A DNA stretch of 64,000 nucleotides, taken from positions 124,001 to 188,000 of the forward strand of contig CAMCUB010000002.1 of the NCBI GenBank assembly GCA_945878845.1. Direction: 5' to 3'. Numbering within the stretch: position 1 is the stretch's first letter; the number at the start of each line of letters is the position of its first letter. The DNA is from Erythrobacter sanguineus. Its GTDB lineage: Bacteria; Pseudomonadota; Alphaproteobacteria; Sphingomonadales; Sphingomonadaceae. The notes beneath the pieces are model-generated. The model was given only the letters and a program-made list of their open reading frames with translations, did not search any database and had not been told where the DNA came from. Position numbers and translations under genes: made by a program. This document shows positions 6,185 through 62,927 of this stretch, one piece after another.

Positions 6185-6264
6185 GTCGTCCCGGACTTGA
6201 TCCGGGACCGCTATCTGCCAAGCGCCACGGTTCGCGCGATCCCGGGTCGAGCCCGGGAGGACAG
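6185..6264. repeat. Palindromic repeat between convergent cysH and epimerase genes
   Basis: An 80-bp copy of the CCCGGG-type element. Outer arms GTCGTCCCGG (from 6185) and CCGGGAGGAC (to 6264) pair with one mismatch. Each half is itself a hairpin: TCCCGGACTTGATCCGGGA, then TCCCGGGTCGAGCCCGGGA. It fills the gap between two convergent genes, where it may act as a bidirectional terminator or mRNA stabiliser (inference). Confidence 0.8.
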
Positions 6265-8312: not shown

Positions 8313-9377
8313 TTACAGCGGCGACCAATCGGGTTCGTCGGCCTCGTCCTCGACCTCGACCGTCTTGGTCTCAGTCGAGGTGCGATCGGGCAGGTAGCCG
8401 AGCACCGCGTCGAGCAGTTCGGGGATGCCAGCGCCGGTCGCGCCCGACACCGCGAAGACCTTGTCCGCGCCCGCGTCCAGCAGTTCGCCGCGATAGGCCT
8501 CGACCAGTTCGGCGTCGGCAAGGTCGAGCTTGTTGAGCACCACCAGCCGCGCCTTGTCCTCAAGGCCCGCGCCGTAAGCGGCGAGCTCTTCCTCGACGAT
8601 GCGCATCGCTTCGGCGGGGTCAGCGTCTTCGGTGCCGGTGATGTCGATGAGGTGGATCAGCACCCGGCAGCGCTCGATATGCCCGAGGAAGCGGTCACCG
8701 ATCCCGGCGCCCTCGGCCGCGCCCTCGATCAGCCCGGGAATGTCGGCGAGCACGAATTCGCGGCCCTTGTGGCGCACGACCCCGAGCTTGGGCACGAGCG
8801 TCGTGAAGGCATAGTCCCCCACCTTGGCCTGCGCGTTGGAGACCGCATTGATGAAGGTCGATTTGCCCGCATTGGGCATGCCGACCAGGCCGACATCGGC
8901 GAGCAGCTTCAATCGCAGCCACACCCAAGCCTCTTGGCCCGGAATGCCATCCTGGTGCTGACGCGGGGCGCGGTTGGTCGAGGTCTTGTAGGAGGCATTG
9001 CCGCGCCCGCCCATCCCGCCTTCGAGGAACACGATCTGCTGACCGACCTCGGTGAAGTCGGCGAGCACTTCCTCCTTGTCCTCGGACAGGATCTGCGTGC
9101 CGACCGGCACCTTGATGACCAGCGGCTTGGCCGAAGCGCCGGTGCGGTCCTTGCCCATCCCGTGCTGCCCGCGCGGGGCCTTGAAGTGCTGCGAATAGCG
9201 GAAGTCGATCAGCGTGTTGAGGCCGGCGACGGCTTCGAACACGATGTCGCCGCCGCGCCCGCCGTTACCGCCGTCGGGGCCGCCATATTCGACGTACATC
9301 TCACGCCGGAACGAGACGGCCCCGGGGCCGCCTCCGCCGGACTTCACATAGATCTTGGCTTGGTCGAGGAAATGCAT
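8313..9377 (-). CDS. obg: Obg/CgtA ribosome-assembly GTPase
   Basis: Essential GTPase acting in 50S subunit maturation and stress signalling. 354 aa. The N-terminal Obg domain shows the glycine-rich repeats (GGGGPGAVSFRRE, GGPDGGNGGRGGD). The G domain from about residue 160 has GMPNAGKSTF (G1), FTTLVP (G2), DIPGLIEGA (G3), NKLD (G4) and SGATGAG (G5). The C-terminus ends in a short acidic tail with no long OCT domain, common in alphaproteobacteria. Located directly upstream of proB; a structured repeat (9435-9529) separates it from the TonB receptor gene. Confidence 0.95.
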   Translation of the reverse strand: MHFLDQAKIYVKSGGGGPGAVSFRREMYVEYGGPDGGNGGRGGDIVFEAVAGLNTLIDFRYSQHFKAPRGQHGMGKDRTGASAKPLVIKVPVGTQILSEDKEEVLADFTEVGQQIVFLEGGMGGRGNASYKTSTNRAPRQHQDGIPGQEAWVWLRLKLLADVGLVGMPNAGKSTFINAVSNAQAKVGDYAFTTLVPKLGVVRHKGREFVLADIPGLIEGAAEGAGIGDRFLGHIERCRVLIHLIDITGTEDADPAEAMRIVEEELAAYGAGLEDKARLVVLNKLDLADAELVEAYRGELLDAGADKVFAVSGATGAGIPELLDAVLGYLPDRTSTETKTVEVEDEADEPDWSPL

Positions 9378-9434: not shown

Positions 9435-9529
9435 CGGCCCGAAGGGCCGCAAGGCCGAACGGCCGCCCGCAGCGATGCGACCTTCAGGTCGCGTGAGCGA
9501 GGATTTCGCAGCCCGGATGGGCTGCGGAA
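9435..9529. repeat. Multi-hairpin structured repeat, copy 1 (obg / TonB-receptor gap)
   Basis: About 95 nt of ordered hairpins: CGGCCC-gaa-GGGCCG (9435-9449), GGCC-gaac-GGCC (9453-9464), GCGACC-ttca-GGTCGC (9477-9492), and GCAGCCC-ggat-GGGCTGC (9508-9525). Invariant linkers CAAGGCCGAACGGCCGCC and GTGAGCGAGGATTTC join them. It ends 1 nt before the stop codon of the minus-strand TonB receptor gene. A second copy at 58591-58687 has the same linkers but different, still paired, stems. I cannot match it to a named family. Confidence 0.85.
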
Positions 9530-9530
9530 C

Positions 9531-11477
9531 TCAAAAACGCGCTTCCACGCCCACCACCGCCGAGCGGCCCGGCGAGACGAAGCTGAACACCTGCTCGTAT
9601 TCCTCGCCGAGCAGGTTCTCGACGCGGGCGAAGGCGCCGATTTGGTCGGTCAGTTTCACCCGCGCGTTGAAGTTGACGAGGGTGTAATCCTCGAGGCTCA
9701 CCCGCACCGGCACGAAGCTCGGGTCGGTGAAGGCGACGTCGGGCGTCTCGCCATTATAGCGCACGACGAGCGTGGCCGAGGCCCTCTCGCCGGGCGCCTC
9801 CCAGGTCAGCGCCGCGCTGGCGATATGGCGCGGGCGGCGCACTTCCTCGATCCCGTTCTCTTCGGCATCGAGGTAGGAATAGGCCGCATCGAGGCTCCAA
9901 GCGCGGCTCATCCGCGCGGTGATCGCGACTTCGATGCCGCGCTGCTGGCTGGTGGTGGCGCGGTTGGCCGGGGTGGCGATGAAGTTCGGCGGCGGGAAGG
10001 TGGTGAAGATCTCGCCTTCCAGTTCGCTGTCGAAATAGGTGACCGCGAGGCTGGTGGAGCGACCGAACTGCTGGTCGATCCCGACTTCCCAGCCGGTCGA
10101 TTTTTCCGGGCGCAGCGCCGCGTTGCCGATGAAGCGCCCGTCGACGAAGCCGTAGAGCTCGAAGAAGCCGGGGTTCTTGACCCCGCTCCCGCCCGCCGCG
10201 CGCAGCCGCGTGCTTTCGGTGATGCGATAGCCCGCGCCGACCCGGAAGGTGGTCGCGTCCTGGAACAGGTCATTGATGTCGTGGCGGATCGCAGCGGAAA
10301 GGTCGAAGTTCTCACCCCCGTAGCGATATTCGCCGACCAGCCCGAACTGCTCGATCTCGCGCCGGGTGGTGAACCCTCCGCTGCCGGCAAAGGCGTTGCG
10401 GAAACCTTCGACCTCGTAGTCGGCGGCGAAGGTCACGCGGTGCTCGCGCGTGATCTCGAAGGCGCTGACATAGGAGGCCTTGATGCGGTCGCCCTCGCTT
10501 GCCGAAGTCAGGCCGAAGGGACTGTCGGTCTCGCGGTCGACCTGCGCAATCTGGGCGGACAGATCATGGCTCCAGCGGCCCTCAAGCGTGTCGAGCCGCG
10601 CCCCGAGGAGGGCATAGATCGCCTCGTTGGTGAAGGTTACGCCGGGGCTGTCGATGATGAAGCCGAAGGTGGGGCTGGCGATGTCGAAGTCGCTGTCGTT
10701 GGTCTGGCCCTCGGTCCGGATGAAGCGGGCGGCGGCGCGCAATGCGAAGTCCTCGGTCACTTCGACGCTGCCCTTGCCCGCCAGCGTGTAACTGTCGCGC
10801 CCGATGTCGCGGGTACCGCCTCTCGCGTTGGGCTGGCCATCGGTGCTGACGACGACGGCGGAGAGCGCCGCGTCCCAGCCGATGCCGTGGGCGCCATAAC
10901 GCGCCGCGCCGTTTAAGGTGCCTTGCGTGCCGCCTTCGAGCCTTGCGGCAAAGCCCGGAAGGCTGTCGCCCGACGCGCTCTGATAGGCGACCACGCCGCC
11001 GATCGCATCCGAGCCATAGAGCGCCGATTGCGCACCCCGCAGCACCTCGAGCCGCGCGCCGGGCTCGGCTTGCAGCGTGCCGATGTCGAACTCGCCGGCG
11101 AAGGGATCGGAGACCTCGATCCCGTCGACCAGCACGAGAACGTGATTGGCCTCGCTGCCGCGCAAGCGGATCTGGGTCTGGCCCGCAACCCCCGCGACCG
11201 CGACGCCCGGCACATCGCGCAGCACGTCGGCGATGTTGCGGGTCTGGCGCCTGTCGAGATCATCGGCGGTGATGACCGAGACCGAGCCCGGATAGCGCGC
11301 GGGCAGATCGGTCCAGGCGCGGCTGGTGGTGACGATGATGTCGTCACGCGCGGCGATGGTGTAGACCTCGGGCTGTTCGGTTTCATCGCCCTCAGCGCCT
11401 GCGTCCTGCGCCCAAGCGGGCACAGCCCAGACCAGCGCCGCCACCGCAGCGCTTCCCAAAAATGCAAAATTCTTCAC
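9531..11477 (-). CDS. btuB: TonB-dependent vitamin B12 receptor, BtuB-like
   Basis: A 648-aa outer-membrane receptor. Seen: a signal peptide (FLGSAAVAALVWAVPAWAQ), a TonB-box-like IIVTTSR near residue 47, a plug domain (SVSVITADDLDRRQTRNIADVL; LVLVDGIEVSDPF; GAQSALYGSDAIGGVVAY), then a 22-strand-type barrel ending in the terminal aromatic GVEARF. Cobalamin as substrate is inferred from the short BtuB-like length and the cobalamin riboswitch in its leader (11606-11790). The stop is overlapped closely by structured repeat copy 1. Predicted regulation: repression when adenosylcobalamin binds the leader. Confidence 0.9.
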   Translation of the reverse strand: MKNFAFLGSAAVAALVWAVPAWAQDAGAEGDETEQPEVYTIAARDDIIVTTSRAWTDLPARYPGSVSVITADDLDRRQTRNIADVLRDVPGVAVAGVAGQTQIRLRGSEANHVLVLVDGIEVSDPFAGEFDIGTLQAEPGARLEVLRGAQSALYGSDAIGGVVAYQSASGDSLPGFAARLEGGTQGTLNGAARYGAHGIGWDAALSAVVVSTDGQPNARGGTRDIGRDSYTLAGKGSVEVTEDFALRAAARFIRTEGQTNDSDFDIASPTFGFIIDSPGVTFTNEAIYALLGARLDTLEGRWSHDLSAQIAQVDRETDSPFGLTSASEGDRIKASYVSAFEITREHRVTFAADYEVEGFRNAFAGSGGFTTRREIEQFGLVGEYRYGGENFDLSAAIRHDINDLFQDATTFRVGAGYRITESTRLRAAGGSGVKNPGFFELYGFVDGRFIGNAALRPEKSTGWEVGIDQQFGRSTSLAVTYFDSELEGEIFTTFPPPNFIATPANRATTSQQRGIEVAITARMSRAWSLDAAYSYLDAEENGIEEVRRPRHIASAALTWEAPGERASATLVVRYNGETPDVAFTDPSFVPVRVSLEDYTLVNFNARVKLTDQIGAFARVENLLGEEYEQVFSFVSPGRSAVVGVEARF

Positions 11478-11605
11478 GGATTCCTCCCGTCATCAGCAAC
11501 ATGAAGGCCGCGAGGGGATCCCATCCCTCACAGCCCGGTGATGTCGCTCACAACAGAAGTGTTTTTCCGCGCCTGGCCAATCCCTGAGCCAAGCAAAGAG
11601 CGACA

Positions 11606-11790
11606 CGCCCCGGTCGGTCTCCTGGCTCACGGATCAGCATATCCGGTGCTCGCCTTCCCGGAAGCGTCGCTGCTTCCAGTGGCTGCCCCTTTCGGGGCGC
11701 GCACCGCATACTCACCGCTTACAGTTGCAGGGACAGCTGCGGCATCGAACCGCATTCCCGTTACCTTGGCGCGGGCGGAGGGATAGCGTC
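11606..11790 (-). promoter_or_regulatory. Cobalamin riboswitch upstream of the TonB receptor
   Basis: Read on the minus strand, the region starts with a GGTAACGGGAATGCGGT-like P2/P3 entry. It continues through the CCTGCAACTGTAAGCGG core and the B12-box GCCACTGG (complement near 11676-11684), and ends with GTGAGCCAGGAGACC. These are the conserved blocks of the AdoCbl riboswitch class. It lies 129 nt upstream of the receptor start, the usual placement for transcription or translation control. Confidence 0.95.
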
Positions 11791-42099: not shown

Positions 42100-42190
42100 G
42101 CCTTCCCGGGCTTGACCCGGGACCCCGCTTTCTTTGAAACGAGGCAGAGCAGAAGGTAGCGGGGCGCCGGACCACGTCCGGTGAGACGAA
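42100..42190. repeat. Palindromic CCCGGG-family repeat, diverged copy
   Basis: Left half TTCCCGGGCTTGACCCGGGA then ACCCCGCTTTCTT; the right half returns with AGAAGGTAGCGGGG and the smaller hairpin GGACCACGTCC. Inner arms ACCCCGCT and AGCGGGG pair. It lies in the 209-bp gap between alkA and the SDR gene. The left half matches the copies at 46027 and 46436; the right half has decayed. Confidence 0.65.
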
Positions 42191-46026: not shown

Positions 46027-46112
46027 GCGGGGGCCCGGGGCAGACCCGGGGCGAGGAAGAAGGATAGTTCAATCCCCGTCCCCCGTCCCGGGCTTGACCC
46101 GGGACCCCGCTC
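46027..46112. repeat. Palindromic CCCGGG-family repeat, left of the GIY-YIG gene
   Basis: An 86-bp element with ~14-bp outer inverted arms, AGCGGGGGCCCGGG and CCCGGGACCCCGCT (one mismatch). The right half has the family hairpin CCCGGG-cttga-CCCGGG. It ends 16 bp before the GIY-YIG start codon. A sister copy lies at 46436, 8 bp after that gene's stop. Confidence 0.8.
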
Positions 46113-46435: not shown

Positions 46436-46517
46436 TTCCCGCCCCGGGCTTGATTTGGGCAGCGATCTTCTTTCCGCCAGCAAGAAAGCTGGGTCCCGGG
46501 TCAAGCCCGGGACGGGG
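46436..46517. repeat. Palindromic CCCGGG-family repeat, right of the GIY-YIG gene
   Basis: An 82-bp element with arms CCCGCCCCGGGCTTGA and TCAAGCCCGGGACGGGG (near-perfect inverted). The core contains TTCTTTCC...AAGAAAGC. It ends 2 bp before the stop codon of the minus-strand map gene and begins 8 bp after the GIY-YIG stop, so it could terminate both transcripts. Confidence 0.82.
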
Positions 46518-58013: not shown

Positions 58014-58580
58014 ATGCTCACTCCGCACTCGACCAAGCTGCTCGCGCTGATGCGGCGGCTTGCCGCCCTGCCTGCCGTTCCGCGCGCGCCCTCCACCCGC
58101 AATGTCGGCGCGGCGGGCGTCGCCTTGATCAAGCGCTTCGAGGGCTGCGCGCGGCTGCGCGGCGACGGGACGGTCGAGGCCTATCCCGACCCCGGCACGG
58201 GCGGCGAGCCCTGGACCATCGGCTGGGGCGCCACCGGCCGCGATGACTTCAACGGCGCGCGCATCGGCCCCGGCACGCGCTGGACGCAGGCGCAGTGCGA
58301 TGCTCGCCTTGCCGCAGACCTCGTTCGCTATGCCGCCGACGTCGCCGCGGTGATCGGGCCTGCGCTGACCACACAGAGCCAGTTCGATGCGATGGTCAGC
58401 TTCCACTACAACACCGGCGCGATCCGCACCGCGACGCTGACCAAGAAGCACATCGCGGGCGACTACGCGGGCGCCGCGCACGAATTCTCGCGCTGGACGC
58501 GCGCGGGTGGGCGGGTGTTGCAGGGCCTCGTGCGCCGCCGCGCAGCGGAGGCGGAACTCTATACCAGCGATAGTGGCTAG
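58014..58580 (+). CDS. GH24 lysozyme (phage-type endolysin fold)
   Basis: 188 aa. Catalytic Glu43 in IKRFEGCARL, followed by YPDPGTGGEPWTIGWGAT with the Asp and Thr68 expected of the E-D-T triad. The C-terminal helical half (QSQFDAMVSFHYNTGAI ... EFSRWTRAGGRVLQGLVRRRAAE) completes the T4-lysozyme-like fold. No signal peptide or SAR-like anchor is evident; an amphipathic N-terminal ~28 residues precede the domain. No phage genes surround it. A structured repeat starts 10 bp after the stop. Confidence 0.92.
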   Translation: MLTPHSTKLLALMRRLAALPAVPRAPSTRNVGAAGVALIKRFEGCARLRGDGTVEAYPDPGTGGEPWTIGWGATGRDDFNGARIGPGTRWTQAQCDARLAADLVRYAADVAAVIGPALTTQSQFDAMVSFHYNTGAIRTATLTKKHIAGDYAGAAHEFSRWTRAGGRVLQGLVRRRAAEAELYTSDSG

Positions 58581-58590
58581 CGCCGTCCAT

Positions 58591-58687
58591 CGGCGGCGCA
58601 GCCGCCGCAAGGCCGAACGGCCGCCCGCAGCGATGCGGCCGTCAGGCCGCGTGAGCGAGGATTTCGCGCGCCGGAGGCGTGCGGAAA
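58591..58687. repeat. Multi-hairpin structured repeat, copy 2 (lysozyme / tamB gap)
   Basis: Same ordered architecture as at 9435: CGGCGG-cgcag-CCGCCG (58591-58607), GGCC-gaac-GGCC (58611-58622), GCGGCC-gtca-GGCCGC (58635-58650) and GCGCGCC-gga-GGCGTGC (58666-58682). The linkers between stems 1 and 3 and between stems 3 and 4 are identical to copy 1, while the stems are re-paired. It lies between convergent 3' ends (lysozyme plus, tamB minus). Confidence 0.85.
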
Positions 58688-58697
58688 CAAAGAGTCC

Positions 58698-61600
58698 TCA
58701 ATAATCCCGGCTAACCTGCACCAGCACCGAATCGCGCCCGATAGTCGACACCGTGCCGAGCAGCGCCAGCCAGCTGGTGATGCGGTATTCGACCTGGGTC
58801 GCGCTGTAGCCGCGGCCATCGGTGATCAGTTCGACATAGATCTGGCGGGTGATGTTCTTGCCGATCGCGATCCCGGTCTGCCGCCCGGTCAGCGGGTCGG
58901 CGCTGACGATGCGCAGCTGGTCGAGCCCGATCGTGCGTCGCAGGCTCCCGATCGGATCGAGGCCCCCGCCCCCGCCCTGCAGCGCCGCCAGCGCCGCCGC
59001 CAGCTGCACCGCGTCGGTCGCCGAGAGTGACGTGACCGATCCGCCGAACAGCAGCCGCGCGAGAATCTCCTCCTCGGGCAGCGAGGGATCGCTCGAAAAG
59101 GCGATGCTCGGCGCCTGCGCGTTGCCGGTGATCGCGATATCGACATTGGTCCCGTTCTTGGCGGTCTCGGCGAGGATATCGAGCCGCGGGTTGATCGGCT
59201 CGTTGACGTCGAACAGGATCCGCCCGCGGGTGAGGTCGAAGCGGGTGCCGGCGAAGGTGTAGTCGCCGCGCACCAGCCGCGCGGTGCCGCCGATGCGCGG
59301 ATCGGCGACCGTGCCGCGCAGCGCGATATCGATGCCCCACTCGCTGTCGAGCCCCAGCCCTTCGACCGCGACTCGCCCCGGGGCCGAGGCGTTGACGAGA
59401 TAGCGCCACGTCGCATCGCGGCCCGAGGCCTGGGCACGCCCACGCCCGTCCTCGCCATTGATCTCGCGCGTGGCGATACGCGGCAGGGCGCGGTCCTCGG
59501 CGGCGTTGCCCAGCGCCCAGCTTGCACGGTCGACCGTGACGCGCCCGGCAATCGTGCCGCCGATGCCGTTGGAGATGATCCGCAAGGGGCCGGTGATGGT
59601 CGCCTCGAGCCCGTCGGCGTCGAGCAGCCGCGCATTCCTCACTGCCGCGCGCAGATCGAGCACCGGCCCGCGCGCTCGGCTCATCTGCGCAAGGTCAACC
59701 GTGCCGCTGCCGCTGACCGTGCCGCCGCCCCCGGTCTGCCCGGCAAAGCTCGCCAGTTCGAGCCGCGATCCGGCGAACCTCCCCCGCGCCTTCACCGCGG
59801 TGATGCGGGTGCCGGTGAGCGCGCTCTGCACCGTCAGATTATCGCTCGCAAGATTGCCGGTGATGCGCGGATCGGCGAGCGTGCCGGTCGCGCGCGCGTC
59901 GATCCGTACCGGGCCGGCAAGGTCGAAGGCCTCGACCGCGGCGAGGCGCCACAGCGTCTCGGCCGCCCCGTCGAAGACCAGCCGCGCGCCGAGGCGTCCG
60001 CGCATCACGCGGTCGCCGAGCGCGCCGTCAGGGGCAAGGCCGAGCACCGCGAGCGAGACGTCGCCGCGCCGCTCCTCGCCCTCGAACAGGCGCGCCGCGG
60101 CGGTCAGGCGGTCGGCGCAGAGGTCAACCACGCCGAACACGTTCACGGGCTTGGACGAGAGCACCAGCCCCGCCCGGCTGAAGCGCTCGATCCGCCCGCG
60201 CGCGCGCGCCGTCGGTGCCTCGCGGCCCGCTTGGCGATAGTCGATGATCCCGGTCAGCCGCCCACCAAGGCCAAGGTCCGCGCCCGCCAGATCGAGCAGC
60301 CGCAGCGGCATCTTCGAAAGCTGGAGGTTGAGCACCGTGGAACCGCCGCCGAAGCTGCCCTCGGCGATGGCGAAACCGCCGCCGAAGCCGATCTGGGTCG
60401 GCGCGAGGCTCCAGCCGCCGCTCTCCTGCGACGTCAGCACCGCGCGGCGCGGCATGGTGATTTCGGCATTGCCATATTGCCCGCGCGCGGCCGCCGCGAT
60501 CTGGTTCGGCGCAACATTGGCGTCGAAATTGAGCGCGAAGCGGTCCGCGCGCCGCCCCGAGACTTGCCCCGTGACCTTGCCCCGCCCGTTGGCGACCGCC
60601 GCCTTGGCAGTGAGGTTGGCAAGGTAGAGCCCGCCATATTCGAAACCGCTCGCGATGATGTCGGCATCGACGGTGGCGCTGCCATCGGCATAGCGCCCGG
60701 TCGCGTCGATATCGGCCCGCGCGATGGTGATCGGCGTCGCCCCGCCGAAGCTCGCATTGCGCGCAGCGAGATCGACCGCGAACCCGATCGCGCCCCCACC
60801 TTGCGGCCGGAAAGCGAGCGTGCCGTTCACCCCGCCGCCCGCCAGACTGAGGTCGCCCGAGACGCCTTCCTCGAGCAGCAGGACCTCGCCCGTCACGTTG
60901 GTGCGGTAGACGTTGAGCCGGTTGATCGCGACACGGGTCGGCGCATTCTCGGGCAGGAACAGCTCGAGCGCGCCGTCGAATTCACCGAGTGTCGATTGGC
61001 CGGAAACATCGAGGCCGAAGCCCTCCTCGCTGGGCGCGAGCGCGATGCGGACATCCTTCAGCCCCGCCGCCGGATAGGGATCGGCGAGCACCAGCACGCC
61101 GCGCGGGCCGTCGCCTGCGATCTCGGCATCGAAGCGGAACGGCCCGTATTGCGCCTGCCGCCCGCTGCCGGCGAGCACGGTGCGGGTCACCCCGCCGCCG
61201 GTCACCACCTTGCTGTCGAGCCGCGCGGTCAGACGCGGCGCGGTGACGGTGGTGTTGCGGAAGATGATCGGCTGGCCCGCCCCCATGCCAAGCTCGCCCT
61301 TGAAGCGCACCTGTGGCCCTGCGAGGTTGACGATGGTGGCGTTGCCGATCCGGCTCAGCACGCCTGCAAGATTGGCGCGCAGGCTCCACGGCACGGCGGG
61401 GCCGAATTTGGCGAGAATCTTGGCGTTGGCGGTCACCTCGCCCGCGCCTTCGACACGCAGGCGGCTGGCGGTCACTGGCCCGGCGATGGCATAGGCGCCC
61501 GCGGGGATATCGCCCTGCAGGCTGAGCTCGGCGTCCAGCCCGGGAAAGGCGATCTCGGTTCGGTCGGCAGCGAGTGCGCCCTTGGCGAAATCATAGGTCA

Positions 61601-62927
61601 GCAGGCCGCTCGCGCGCCCCTTCACCAGCCGCGGATCGGCCTGGGCGATGCCGGTCGTCACGGCTTGCGCGGTGAGAGCGAGCGGCAGGCTCAGCACCGA
61701 TCCCTCGAGCCGCGCGCTGCCCTCCTGCGCAAGGCCGGTCGCCGTCACGCCCGAGGAAAGCAGCCGCGCGACAGCGATCTCGTGCTTGATGCCGAGGTCG
61801 TCGAACGCCCCTGTCAGGCTGGCAACGAGCGTCCCGCCCTCGATCCGCAGGTTCTGCCCGAACAGATCGGGATTGCGCAGCGCAAGCCGCACCCGCGCGC
61901 CATCGACCACCTTGTCGGCAAGGTCAGCCCCGCCGCTGACCCGCGCATCGAGACCGTCCGAGACCGCGGCGGCGCGGCCCTCGATCACGCTGTCCACGAG
62001 CGTGAAGCTGGCGGCAAGCGCGGTGGTCTCGCCCAGCGCGCGGCCGATCAGAGTTTCGGACCCGAACAGGCTGCGCCATTCGCCCAGCACGCCGTAGCGG
62101 CCCGCGTCATTGGTAATGCGGAAGGCGGCGACCCGCTGGTCATCGGTGCCGATCGCCCGCGCCACCGCCGCGCCGCGCCAGCGCTTCCATGTGCCATCGC
62201 CGACAATCCGCGCCGAATAGCCCCGCTCGAGCTTCGCCAGCCCAGCCAGCACCCCGCCCGCCGGGGCGAGCGCATCGCCCGAAAGATCGAACCGGTCGCC
62301 ATCGGGCTCGGCATCGAGCAGCAGCGCGAAGCGGTCCTGCGCCCCCAACCGCGCATTCGCGTCGATCAGCGCGCGGCCTTCGCGGATATCGACCCTGGCG
62401 GTGAGGTTCGCCCGCTCGTCACGCGGCGTGGCGAGGCCCTTGGCGATGGTCAGGTCCTCGATCACCAGCTTGTCGATGCGGATGTCGAAATTGGGCAGCA
62501 GCGGGGCATCGGGATCGCCGGGGAGCAACTCCGGCAGCCGCGCGAGCCGCCCGCGCCGCGCCGTGACCTCGCGGATGTCGAGCCCGCTCCACAGCCACTT
62601 CAGCGGCCGCCAGTCGAGCTGCACTTCGGGGATGGTGAGGAAGGCGCCCTTGGGATCGCTCACCGTCACTTGCCGCAGCACCGCCTGCCCATAAATATCG
62701 CCTTCGATCCGCCCGACGGTGAAGCGCAGACCCGAAGCGGGCGCGGCCGCCGCAATCTGGTCGGCGATGAAGCGCTTGCCGATCGGGGTGGCAAAGAACA
62801 GCGCGGCCAGCAGGAAGGGGGCGAGCAGCAGGCCCAGCGCCCAGCCCGCGCGCTTGCTCCAGCGGCGTCCACGCGAAGCCTTGCGCGGCGGCGTCGCTGC
62901 GCCGGTCTCCACCCCCACCTCCGCCAT
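58698..62927 (-). CDS. tamB: Translocation/assembly module protein TamB
   Basis: 1409-aa AsmA-like inner-membrane-anchored bridge protein (DUF490). N-terminal membrane helix at about residues 28-50 (GWALGLLLAPFLLAALFFATPIG), a long beta-rich repeat region, and the conserved C-terminal DUF490 block (DYTFAGTRFDLTRGRILFDVNEPINPRLDI ... PSLPEEEILARLLFGGSV), ending in a barrel-compatible ..VLVQVSRDY. Partners with TamA in outer-membrane protein or lipid transport. ATG overlaps the tamA stop by 1 nt; ~35 bp of structured repeat separate its stop from lysozyme. Confidence 0.95.
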   Translation of the reverse strand: MAEVGVETGAATPPRKASRGRRWSKRAGWALGLLLAPFLLAALFFATPIGKRFIADQIAAAAPASGLRFTVGRIEGDIYGQAVLRQVTVSDPKGAFLTIPEVQLDWRPLKWLWSGLDIREVTARRGRLARLPELLPGDPDAPLLPNFDIRIDKLVIEDLTIAKGLATPRDERANLTARVDIREGRALIDANARLGAQDRFALLLDAEPDGDRFDLSGDALAPAGGVLAGLAKLERGYSARIVGDGTWKRWRGAAVARAIGTDDQRVAAFRITNDAGRYGVLGEWRSLFGSETLIGRALGETTALAASFTLVDSVIEGRAAAVSDGLDARVSGGADLADKVVDGARVRLALRNPDLFGQNLRIEGGTLVASLTGAFDDLGIKHEIAVARLLSSGVTATGLAQEGSARLEGSVLSLPLALTAQAVTTGIAQADPRLVKGRASGLLTYDFAKGALAADRTEIAFPGLDAELSLQGDIPAGAYAIAGPVTASRLRVEGAGEVTANAKILAKFGPAVPWSLRANLAGVLSRIGNATIVNLAGPQVRFKGELGMGAGQPIIFRNTTVTAPRLTARLDSKVVTGGGVTRTVLAGSGRQAQYGPFRFDAEIAGDGPRGVLVLADPYPAAGLKDVRIALAPSEEGFGLDVSGQSTLGEFDGALELFLPENAPTRVAINRLNVYRTNVTGEVLLLEEGVSGDLSLAGGGVNGTLAFRPQGGGAIGFAVDLAARNASFGGATPITIARADIDATGRYADGSATVDADIIASGFEYGGLYLANLTAKAAVANGRGKVTGQVSGRRADRFALNFDANVAPNQIAAAARGQYGNAEITMPRRAVLTSQESGGWSLAPTQIGFGGGFAIAEGSFGGGSTVLNLQLSKMPLRLLDLAGADLGLGGRLTGIIDYRQAGREAPTARARGRIERFSRAGLVLSSKPVNVFGVVDLCADRLTAAARLFEGEERRGDVSLAVLGLAPDGALGDRVMRGRLGARLVFDGAAETLWRLAAVEAFDLAGPVRIDARATGTLADPRITGNLASDNLTVQSALTGTRITAVKARGRFAGSRLELASFAGQTGGGGTVSGSGTVDLAQMSRARGPVLDLRAAVRNARLLDADGLEATITGPLRIISNGIGGTIAGRVTVDRASWALGNAAEDRALPRIATREINGEDGRGRAQASGRDATWRYLVNASAPGRVAVEGLGLDSEWGIDIALRGTVADPRIGGTARLVRGDYTFAGTRFDLTRGRILFDVNEPINPRLDILAETAKNGTNVDIAITGNAQAPSIAFSSDPSLPEEEILARLLFGGSVTSLSATDAVQLAAALAALQGGGGGLDPIGSLRRTIGLDQLRIVSADPLTGRQTGIAIGKNITRQIYVELITDGRGYSATQVEYRITSWLALLGTVSTIGRDSVLVQVSRDY

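Follow-up and report, generated by a model that had tools for sequence, protein, structure and literature searches.

A chain of four hairpins joined by invariant linkers occurs twice in the window, the stretch of 64,000 nucleotides of Erythrobacter sanguineus analysed here, and recurs in this and related genomes. We interpret it as a dispersed REP/BIME-like repeat whose working form would be the + strand folded as single-stranded DNA (ssDNA) into a chain of mini-hairpins, and we give this reading a probability of about one half. The arguments for it are covariation of the stems, the class of loops found on the + strand, DNA folding energies, an excess of G.T wobbles in H4 and the wobbles of '-E-' copies, together with a REP-like gene context, head-to-head mates, traits published for REPs and REPINs, unit-wise differences between hairpins and a loop switch.

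Organization of the two copies in the window

On the + strand, each element reads H1 - CAAG - H2 - CCCGCAG - H3 - GAGGA - H4 over about 95 nucleotides, copy 1 spanning 9435-9530 and copy 2 58591-58697. The general plan of the family (+) is a variable H1 stem, CAAG, H2 (xxCGAACGyy), CGCCCGCAG, an H3 cassette of several classes, GAGGA, H4 with a variable stem and a GGAN loop, and an A-rich tail. The parts and their flanking genes are listed below, with the basis of each assignment in brackets.

8313-9377, - strand: obg, flank of copy 1 (gene calls)
9435-9449, + strand: copy 1 H1, CGGCCC (GAA) GGGCCG, a GNA loop (sequence, fold)
9450-9453, + strand: copy 1 linker CAAG (sequence; conserved among aligned copies)
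9454-9463, + strand: copy 1 H2, GCC (GAAC) GGC (sequence; both variable pairs covary)
9464-9472, + strand: copy 1 linker CGCCCGCAG, in which CCCGC pairs with GCG-A-GG in the + fold (sequence, fold)
9473-9498, + strand: copy 1 H3 cassette, class a, hairpin GCGACC (TTCA) GGTCGC (sequence, fold)
9499-9507, + strand: copy 1 linker GAGGA, then TTTC (sequence; [CG]GAGGA kept across the family)
9508-9525, + strand: copy 1 H4, GCAGCCC (GGAT) GGGCTGC (sequence, covariation)
9526-9533, + strand: copy 1 tail GGAAC and the stop codon (TCA on +) of the minus-strand TonB-dependent receptor gene (sequence, gene calls)
9531-11477, - strand: TonB-dependent receptor gene, flank of copy 1 (gene calls)
58014-58580, + strand: lysozyme-like gene, convergent partner at copy 2 (gene calls)
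58591-58607, + strand: copy 2 H1, CGGCGGC (GCA) GCCGCCG, a GNA loop (sequence, fold)
58608-58611, + strand: copy 2 linker CAAG (sequence)
58612-58621, + strand: copy 2 H2, GCC (GAAC) GGC (sequence)
58622-58630, + strand: copy 2 linker CGCCCGCAG (sequence, fold)
58631-58656, + strand: copy 2 H3 cassette, class a, hairpin GCGGCC (GTCA) GGCCGC, a GNNA loop (sequence, fold)
58657-58665, + strand: copy 2 linker GAGGA, then TTTC (sequence)
58666-58682, + strand: copy 2 H4, GCGCGCC (GGA) GGCGTGC, one G.T pair, a GNA loop (sequence, fold)
58683-58700, + strand: copy 2 A-rich tail and the stop codon (TCA on +, 58698-58700) of the minus-strand TamB-like gene (sequence, gene calls)
58698-62927, - strand: TamB-like gene, convergent partner at copy 2 (gene calls)

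The first-pass annotation had described two distant elements with invariant linkers, and both linkers indeed recur exactly, the first at 9450-9467 and 58608-58625 and the second at 9493-9507 and 58651-58665; chance would yield 0.40 and 2.33 matches per window, respectively, at up to three mismatches, and the four observed matches have none. The stem changes it listed are present too: H1 is re-paired (CGGCCC/GGGCCG versus CGGCGGC/GCCGCCG), H3 changes an A:T to a G:C pair (GCGACC/GGTCGC versus GCGGCC/GGCCGC) and H4 flips pairs (GCAGCCC/GGGCTGC versus GCGCGCC/GGCGTGC), to which we add a G.T wobble at pair 3 of copy 2. In the RNA fold of the + strand, the linkers of both copies are not merely unpaired, as CCCGC pairs with GCG-A-GG and encloses H3. 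The z-scores of the RNA fold are -3.67 (copy 1) and -2.64 (copy 2) on the + strand, and -2.46 and -1.66 on the - strand. As to the outer pairs of class-a H3 cassettes, one non-Watson-Crick pair (C.A, T.G or G.T) is usually kept, and both are fully paired in 11 of 78.

Family size and taxonomic range

A BLAST search of the E. sanguineus genome (G000; 3,218,910 bases, 57 contigs) with the copy-1 region gives 44 matches at E<=1, some full and others partial; the core is matched 36 times when up to two mismatches are allowed, and the reversed pattern used as a control 0 times. Collecting copies for a covariation test and scanning related Sphingomonadales had been proposed at first pass. We gathered 321 copies, mostly from Erythrobacter-type Sphingomonadales, whose covarying pairs go beyond a phylogenetic null (see below), and the strict core pattern occurs in at least 33 of 396 genomes of the order and at least 3 of 385 genomes of the class, all three in the window's own family. 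These presence counts are lower bounds because genomes with another H2 loop are missed: G177 and G448, which have the GACC loop, give 0 strict matches but 29 and 37, respectively, at up to two mismatches. A scan of named genomes returned at least 111 stretches; among the 80 listed, most come from Erythrobacter and related genera, and further titles among the matches listed are Woodsholea maritima, Glycocaulis profundi, Halovulum marinum and an Acidobacteriaceae MAG. Copies inspected in Woodsholea and Glycocaulis are shorter (H1-H2-CCCGCAGCGAAGCGAGGA), with no evident H4.

Since a single core pattern served to find the copies, part of the conservation of CAAG..CCGCAG follows from the search itself. 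The [CG]GAGGA motif lies outside that pattern; 292 of 321 copies have it within 95 nucleotides downstream of the core, versus 20 and 29 of 303 for two control windows.

Rfam has no match at either element at the gathering threshold; at a lax threshold, the best score for copy 1 is 16.7 bits versus a gathering value of 49, which is nothing meaningful. Plasmid and phage collections contain no match to copy 1. The family is not described in the open-licence PMC papers that we searched, and the part of the RepRanger article cited here (PMC12306157) counts generic REPs in Erythrobacter cryptus and names no such family.

Placement relative to genes

Both neighbours of copy 1 are on the minus strand, with the start of obg on one side and the stop codon of the TonB-dependent receptor gene on the other; gene calls agree with the first-pass placement between obg and the stop of a minus-strand gene. 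Copy 2 lies between the convergent lysozyme-like and TamB-like genes. Upstream of the TonB-dependent receptor gene abutting copy 1 there is a cobalamin riboswitch (RF00174, 84.7 bits; 11595-11783, - strand), which suggests that this gene encodes a B12 receptor.

With genes called by an in-house codon scorer, 127 of the 321 copies lie between convergent genes and 17 between divergent ones, 94 are '-E-' and 60 '+E+', 17 are at a contig edge and 6 are within a called gene; 298 of 321 are intergenic with both neighbours called. When the gene on the tail side is on the minus strand and H4 could be parsed, the end of H4 is 0-20 nucleotides from the stop codon in 121 of 168 copies. The element is mostly found directly after a gene, antisense to that gene. 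An inverted mate is present upstream in 80 of 298 copies; these head-to-head mates (for instance upstream of loci L003, L011, L099 and L206) often have a variant core, such as CGAGCGCACGGCGCGAGCCGCAG, which marks a second subfamily. At two other loci (L050 and L085), the copy is directly upstream of a sequence that reads, by eye, like a tRNA gene.

An RNA element would also fit this placement, immediately downstream of stop codons and between genes that converge or run in the same direction. It could be a structured 3' UTR or an antisense RNA, acting by protecting mRNA ends, stalling ribosomes at the stop codon or limiting antisense transcription. The + strand folds well as RNA and tolerates G.T wobbles. 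However, the favoured strand is antisense to the gene that the tail abuts, and neither window copy has a terminator-like site (G+C-rich hairpin plus T run; 0 around copies 1 and 2, the two copies scanned) or a sigma-70-like promoter site around it. A GGA-loop RNA would call for CsrA, and the gene (PF02599) was not found in the E. sanguineus genome (0 matches), on which ground we rejected a CsrA-type RNA. With the loop and energy data given below, we consider an RNA element rather unlikely.

Covariation of the stems

In a set of 61 class-a copies, 10 of 21 tested pairs lie above every value obtained from 100 tree-simulated alignments with independent sites. These ten comprise five pairs in H4, two each in H1 and H2 and one in H3; the best other column pair has E=1.7. 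Among the remaining tested pairs, several are nearly invariant and two outer H3 pairs are variable without covariation. Because the H1 and H4 arms of this set were placed by best pairing (as in the H1-wobble, swapped-arm and part of the orthologue analyses), we redid the H2/H4 test with motif anchors only. The 210 distinct sequences used there (75 of 321 copies are without the motif) give E<0.01 for both H2 pairs and two H4 pairs; of the other H4 pairs, one has E of 0.01 and three 0.05-0.07, the best other pair having 1.4. RNAalifold, run on 64 copies, yields 23 pairs, 12 of them with two-sided changes. P-values are optimistic, since related copies were treated as independent. A constraint on stem pairing is supported by this covariation above the tree-simulated null; the linkers and loops, for their part, are conserved.

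Which molecule folds?

Is the constrained fold that of an RNA or of the + strand itself? The first-pass annotation had left the choice between RNA and folded single-stranded DNA, and the loops, the energies and the fourth base of the H4 loop fit the DNA option better. GNAB loops are one of the DNA mini-hairpin types. GNA and GNNA loops form extraordinarily stable DNA mini-hairpins according to the cited part of PMC4686876; the same loop class dominates H1 and H3, and GCGAAGC is found in short H3 cassettes, although the published hairpins were studied as synthetic oligonucleotides and not as a genomic repeat family. Among distinct hairpins closed by C-G in 292 copies, 111 of 237 have a GNA, GNNA or GNAB loop on the + strand and 8 have the mirror loop (59 versus 6 when H4 is left out), compared with 32 versus 24 of 407 in flanking DNA. 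The fourth base of the H4 loop (n=101) is G in 53, T in 37, C in 9 and A in 2; A at this position makes an RNA-type GNRA loop, so that the RNA type is rare. With DNA energy parameters, the + strand is favoured in 153 and the - strand in 42 of 198 copies; with RNA parameters the figures are 94 and 100 of 198, without strand preference. Both the DNA-type loops and these RNA energies speak against an RNA element.

Wobble pairs point the same way in part. G.T outnumbers A.C by 22 to 5 in motif-anchored H4 stems (17 to 5 by distinct stem), by 32 to 16 in H1 (including 16 to 4 at the three outer conserved pairs) and by 9 to 3 in class-a H3, whereas a swapped-arm control for H1 gives 19 to 21. There is no such bias in H2 (5 to 5), and the unfiltered count for H2 and H4 together is even (37 to 37). 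In the 94 '-E-' copies, the + strand is not transcribed by the flanking genes, and the ratio there is 6 to 1. Taken together, these data describe a DNA-like fold specific to one strand. One point tells against the loop argument: G448 and G177 have fixed a GACC loop, which is outside the GNA, GNNA and GNAB classes.

We saw no replication-strand bias: across four genomes out of the six in which relaxed core matches had been located, the folding strand is on the lagging-strand template at 35 places and on the leading-strand template at 42, a count for which 105 of 109 places were typed (one chance-looking place per genome was left out), 28 of the 105 were skipped as near the origin or terminus, and origins were taken from weak GC skew, poorest for G345.

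Hairpins differ as units at inherited sites

Both flanks match between loci in 58 groups of orthologous sites, where site and orientation are kept and modules differ. Over 281 orthologous comparisons, which are non-independent within a site (mean flank identity about 85% in a subset of 201 pairs), the 6-nucleotide H1 arm is identical in 57% versus 11% of random pairs, and the H4 arm in 29% versus 3%. H2 is unchanged in 140 of these 281 comparisons, differs at one pair in 38 and at both pairs in 71, and is unpaired in 32; 22 of 51 sites are mixed for H2, showing two-pair differences alone at 11, one-pair differences alone at 9 and both kinds at 2, and 23 of 51 carry more than one H3 class. Stepwise compensation alone would yield mainly one-pair differences, hence the differences between copies are not all stepwise. 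The first-pass idea that paired changes betray a selected structure therefore holds as regards covariation above the null, but not as regards a purely stepwise compensation. H3 class changes and two-pair H2 differences at orthologous sites suggest that hairpins may be replaced as units. Module identity within genomes shows no significant excess over that between genomes (H1 p 0.58, H2 0.39, H3 0.12, H4 0.15) and, as it is not clearly higher within a genome, whole-stem conversion is not favoured. H2, H3 class and H1 are statistically associated, ancestry being uncorrected.

Unit-wise differences would also be expected of neutral palindromes, in which template switching during replication copies one arm onto the other, yielding two-sided changes at once and keeping stems paired without structural selection. 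This model, however, predicts no strand asymmetry of loops, contrary to the 111 versus 8 observed, and it leaves unexplained both the placement at stop codons and the retention, in 292 of 321 copies, of a [CG]GAGGA linker that the search pattern did not include. We regard it as improbable.

A single letter of the H2 loop distinguishes some genomes. CGACCG is present in 29 of 30 copies of G448 (CGACTG in 1) and in 26 of 28 copies of G177 (CGACTG in 2), CGAACG being absent from both; G447 has CGACCG in 6 of 7. The E. sanguineus genome has CGAACG in 29 of 33 and no CGACCG. Loops are mixed, CGAACG versus CGACCG, in G228 (24 versus 8 of 36), G418 (16 versus 7 of 28) and G003 (14 versus 3 of 17). 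For G448 and G177 together, 41 copies have orthologous copies elsewhere (neighbours at one site counted apart); in the 103 resulting comparisons, CGACCG faces CGAACG in 80 and CGACCG is on both sides in 9. One H2 loop letter is switched at dozens of inherited sites in these two genomes, through one event or more to go by a weakly supported single-gene tree.

At the copy-1 site, G177 and three other genomes have the element, and the relative G445, whose obg region is 93% identical, has other DNA with another palindrome. Tandem copies also occur.

Relation to known repeats

At first pass, the element could not be placed in a named RNA, REP or BIME family. This stands for family membership: there is no Rfam match, GTAG and CGTC tags were not seen and the E. 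sanguineus genome has no Y1 transposase; but the context and the head-to-head pairing are REP-like. GTAG is not among the conserved positions of 64 aligned copies, nor in the flank or tail consensus, and the Y1 transposase/RAYT (PF01797) gives 0 matches in the E. sanguineus genome and is present in 10 of 61 genomes. We did not find the CGTC tag, an 8-9 bp stem with A-T first pairs or a CCA-type tail; other conserved sequence follows H4 and H1. On the other hand, the element shares with GTAG REPs, REPINs and BIMEs an extragenic placement at gene ends with inverted units, and with CGTC REPs a position near ORF 3' ends, head-to-head dimers and the lack of a dedicated transposase. The element works like a REP, but neither the tags of the GTAG and CGTC superfamilies nor, in the E. 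sanguineus genome, the GTAG transposase was found.

The part of PMC3733652 cited here presents CGTC REPs as common in alphaproteobacteria and without a dedicated transposase, and places both CGTC and GTAG REPs at up to 20 bp from ORF ends, with head-to-head dimers. Like these CGTC palindromes, the present element is extragenic and found at ORF 3' ends, usually where the two genes converge or point the same way. However, the same source describes a single 8-9 bp stem with an unpaired CGTC tag and a CCA-type tail, unlike the H1-H4 chain with its H3 cassette, invariant linkers and hypervariable stems. Likenesses to the GTAG REPs, BIMEs and REPINs with RAYT/TnpAREP, as far as the cited parts of PMC3116915 and PMC8266576 go, are the folded ssDNA, stems that are permissive in some systems, recognized loops, bulges and tags, mosaic or inverted units, and compensatory changes: in characterized REPs, some stems are structural whereas loops, bulges and tags are read (PMC8266576), and compensatory changes are reported in REPINs (PMC3116915). 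Unlike GTAG REPs, the present element shows no GTAG tag or (in the E. sanguineus genome) Y1 transposase, has several hairpins per unit, and its sites are largely kept between species.

Could this still be one of the known REP superfamilies (GTAG/RAYT or CGTC), with its parts unusually arranged? Gene context, head-to-head dimers and the lack of a dedicated transposase are as in the CGTC REPs of the cited part of PMC3733652. However, the unit is a chain of three or four hairpins and not one palindrome of 20-40 bp, the GTAG tag, the CGTC tag with CCA tail and the first A-T pairs were all not seen, and palindromes resembling CGTC REPs sit elsewhere in the window; we therefore think such membership highly improbable. 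These palindromes match CCCGGGCTTGACCCGGGA at up to two mismatches, six times in the window for 0.21 expected by chance at up to three mismatches, and resemble the alphaproteobacterial CGTC-type REPs of the same cited part (PMC3733652), as judged without their tags:

2532-2549, 6190-6207, 6240-6257, 42105-42122, 46087-46104 and 46494-46511: copies of the CCCGGGCTTGACCCGGGA palindrome

A REP-like palindrome is also found inside the H3 cassette in 5 of 292 copies (L195, L285, L314, L176 and L070), so that H3 may serve other repeats as an insertion site.

Integron attC sites likewise lie after stop codons and act as a folded strand in which structure matters more than sequence; each is one long imperfect hairpin with defined, conserved end boxes, and an integron integrase goes with them. 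Compared by description, they resemble the present element in position and in the folded strand.

A proposed folded ssDNA repeat

In the folded-ssDNA reading, a putative protein or process that meets ssDNA would recognize loops and linkers, while the stems would need only to pair. The element may have spread along with such a factor, and by now most copies would be inherited where they stand. If copies recombine or switch templates with one another, using the linkers as anchors, hairpins could be swapped as units and core changes carried from copy to copy. The position after genes may be tolerated or useful, as proposed for other REPs.

Several observations go against this reading. No factor emerged from the analysis, the Y1 transposase is missing from the E. 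sanguineus genome and the replication-strand bias is absent; wobbles are even in H2 and in the unfiltered H2 and H4 count, and the H1 bias is located at conserved outer pairs. In addition, the GACC loop is outside the stable loop classes, the outer H3 pairs do not covary and H2 loops are mixed in G228, G418 and G003.

More tentatively, the family could represent a new class of chromosomal ssDNA element: an array of three or four hairpins with ultra-stable DNA mini-hairpin loops, its loops and linkers read by a putative protein, cassette-swapped hairpins and a loop rewritten jointly at dozens of sites, recognizer and sites co-evolving. Whatever its class, the family supplies many natural copies with which constraint on RNA and on ssDNA can be distinguished by sequence alone, through loop class and strand. 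Species share dispersed sites by inheritance, yet the hairpins at these sites differ as units and one loop letter has changed at dozens of them together. This makes it testable what reads folded ssDNA at gene ends in these bacteria, and how short dispersed repeats stay alike without being copied whole.
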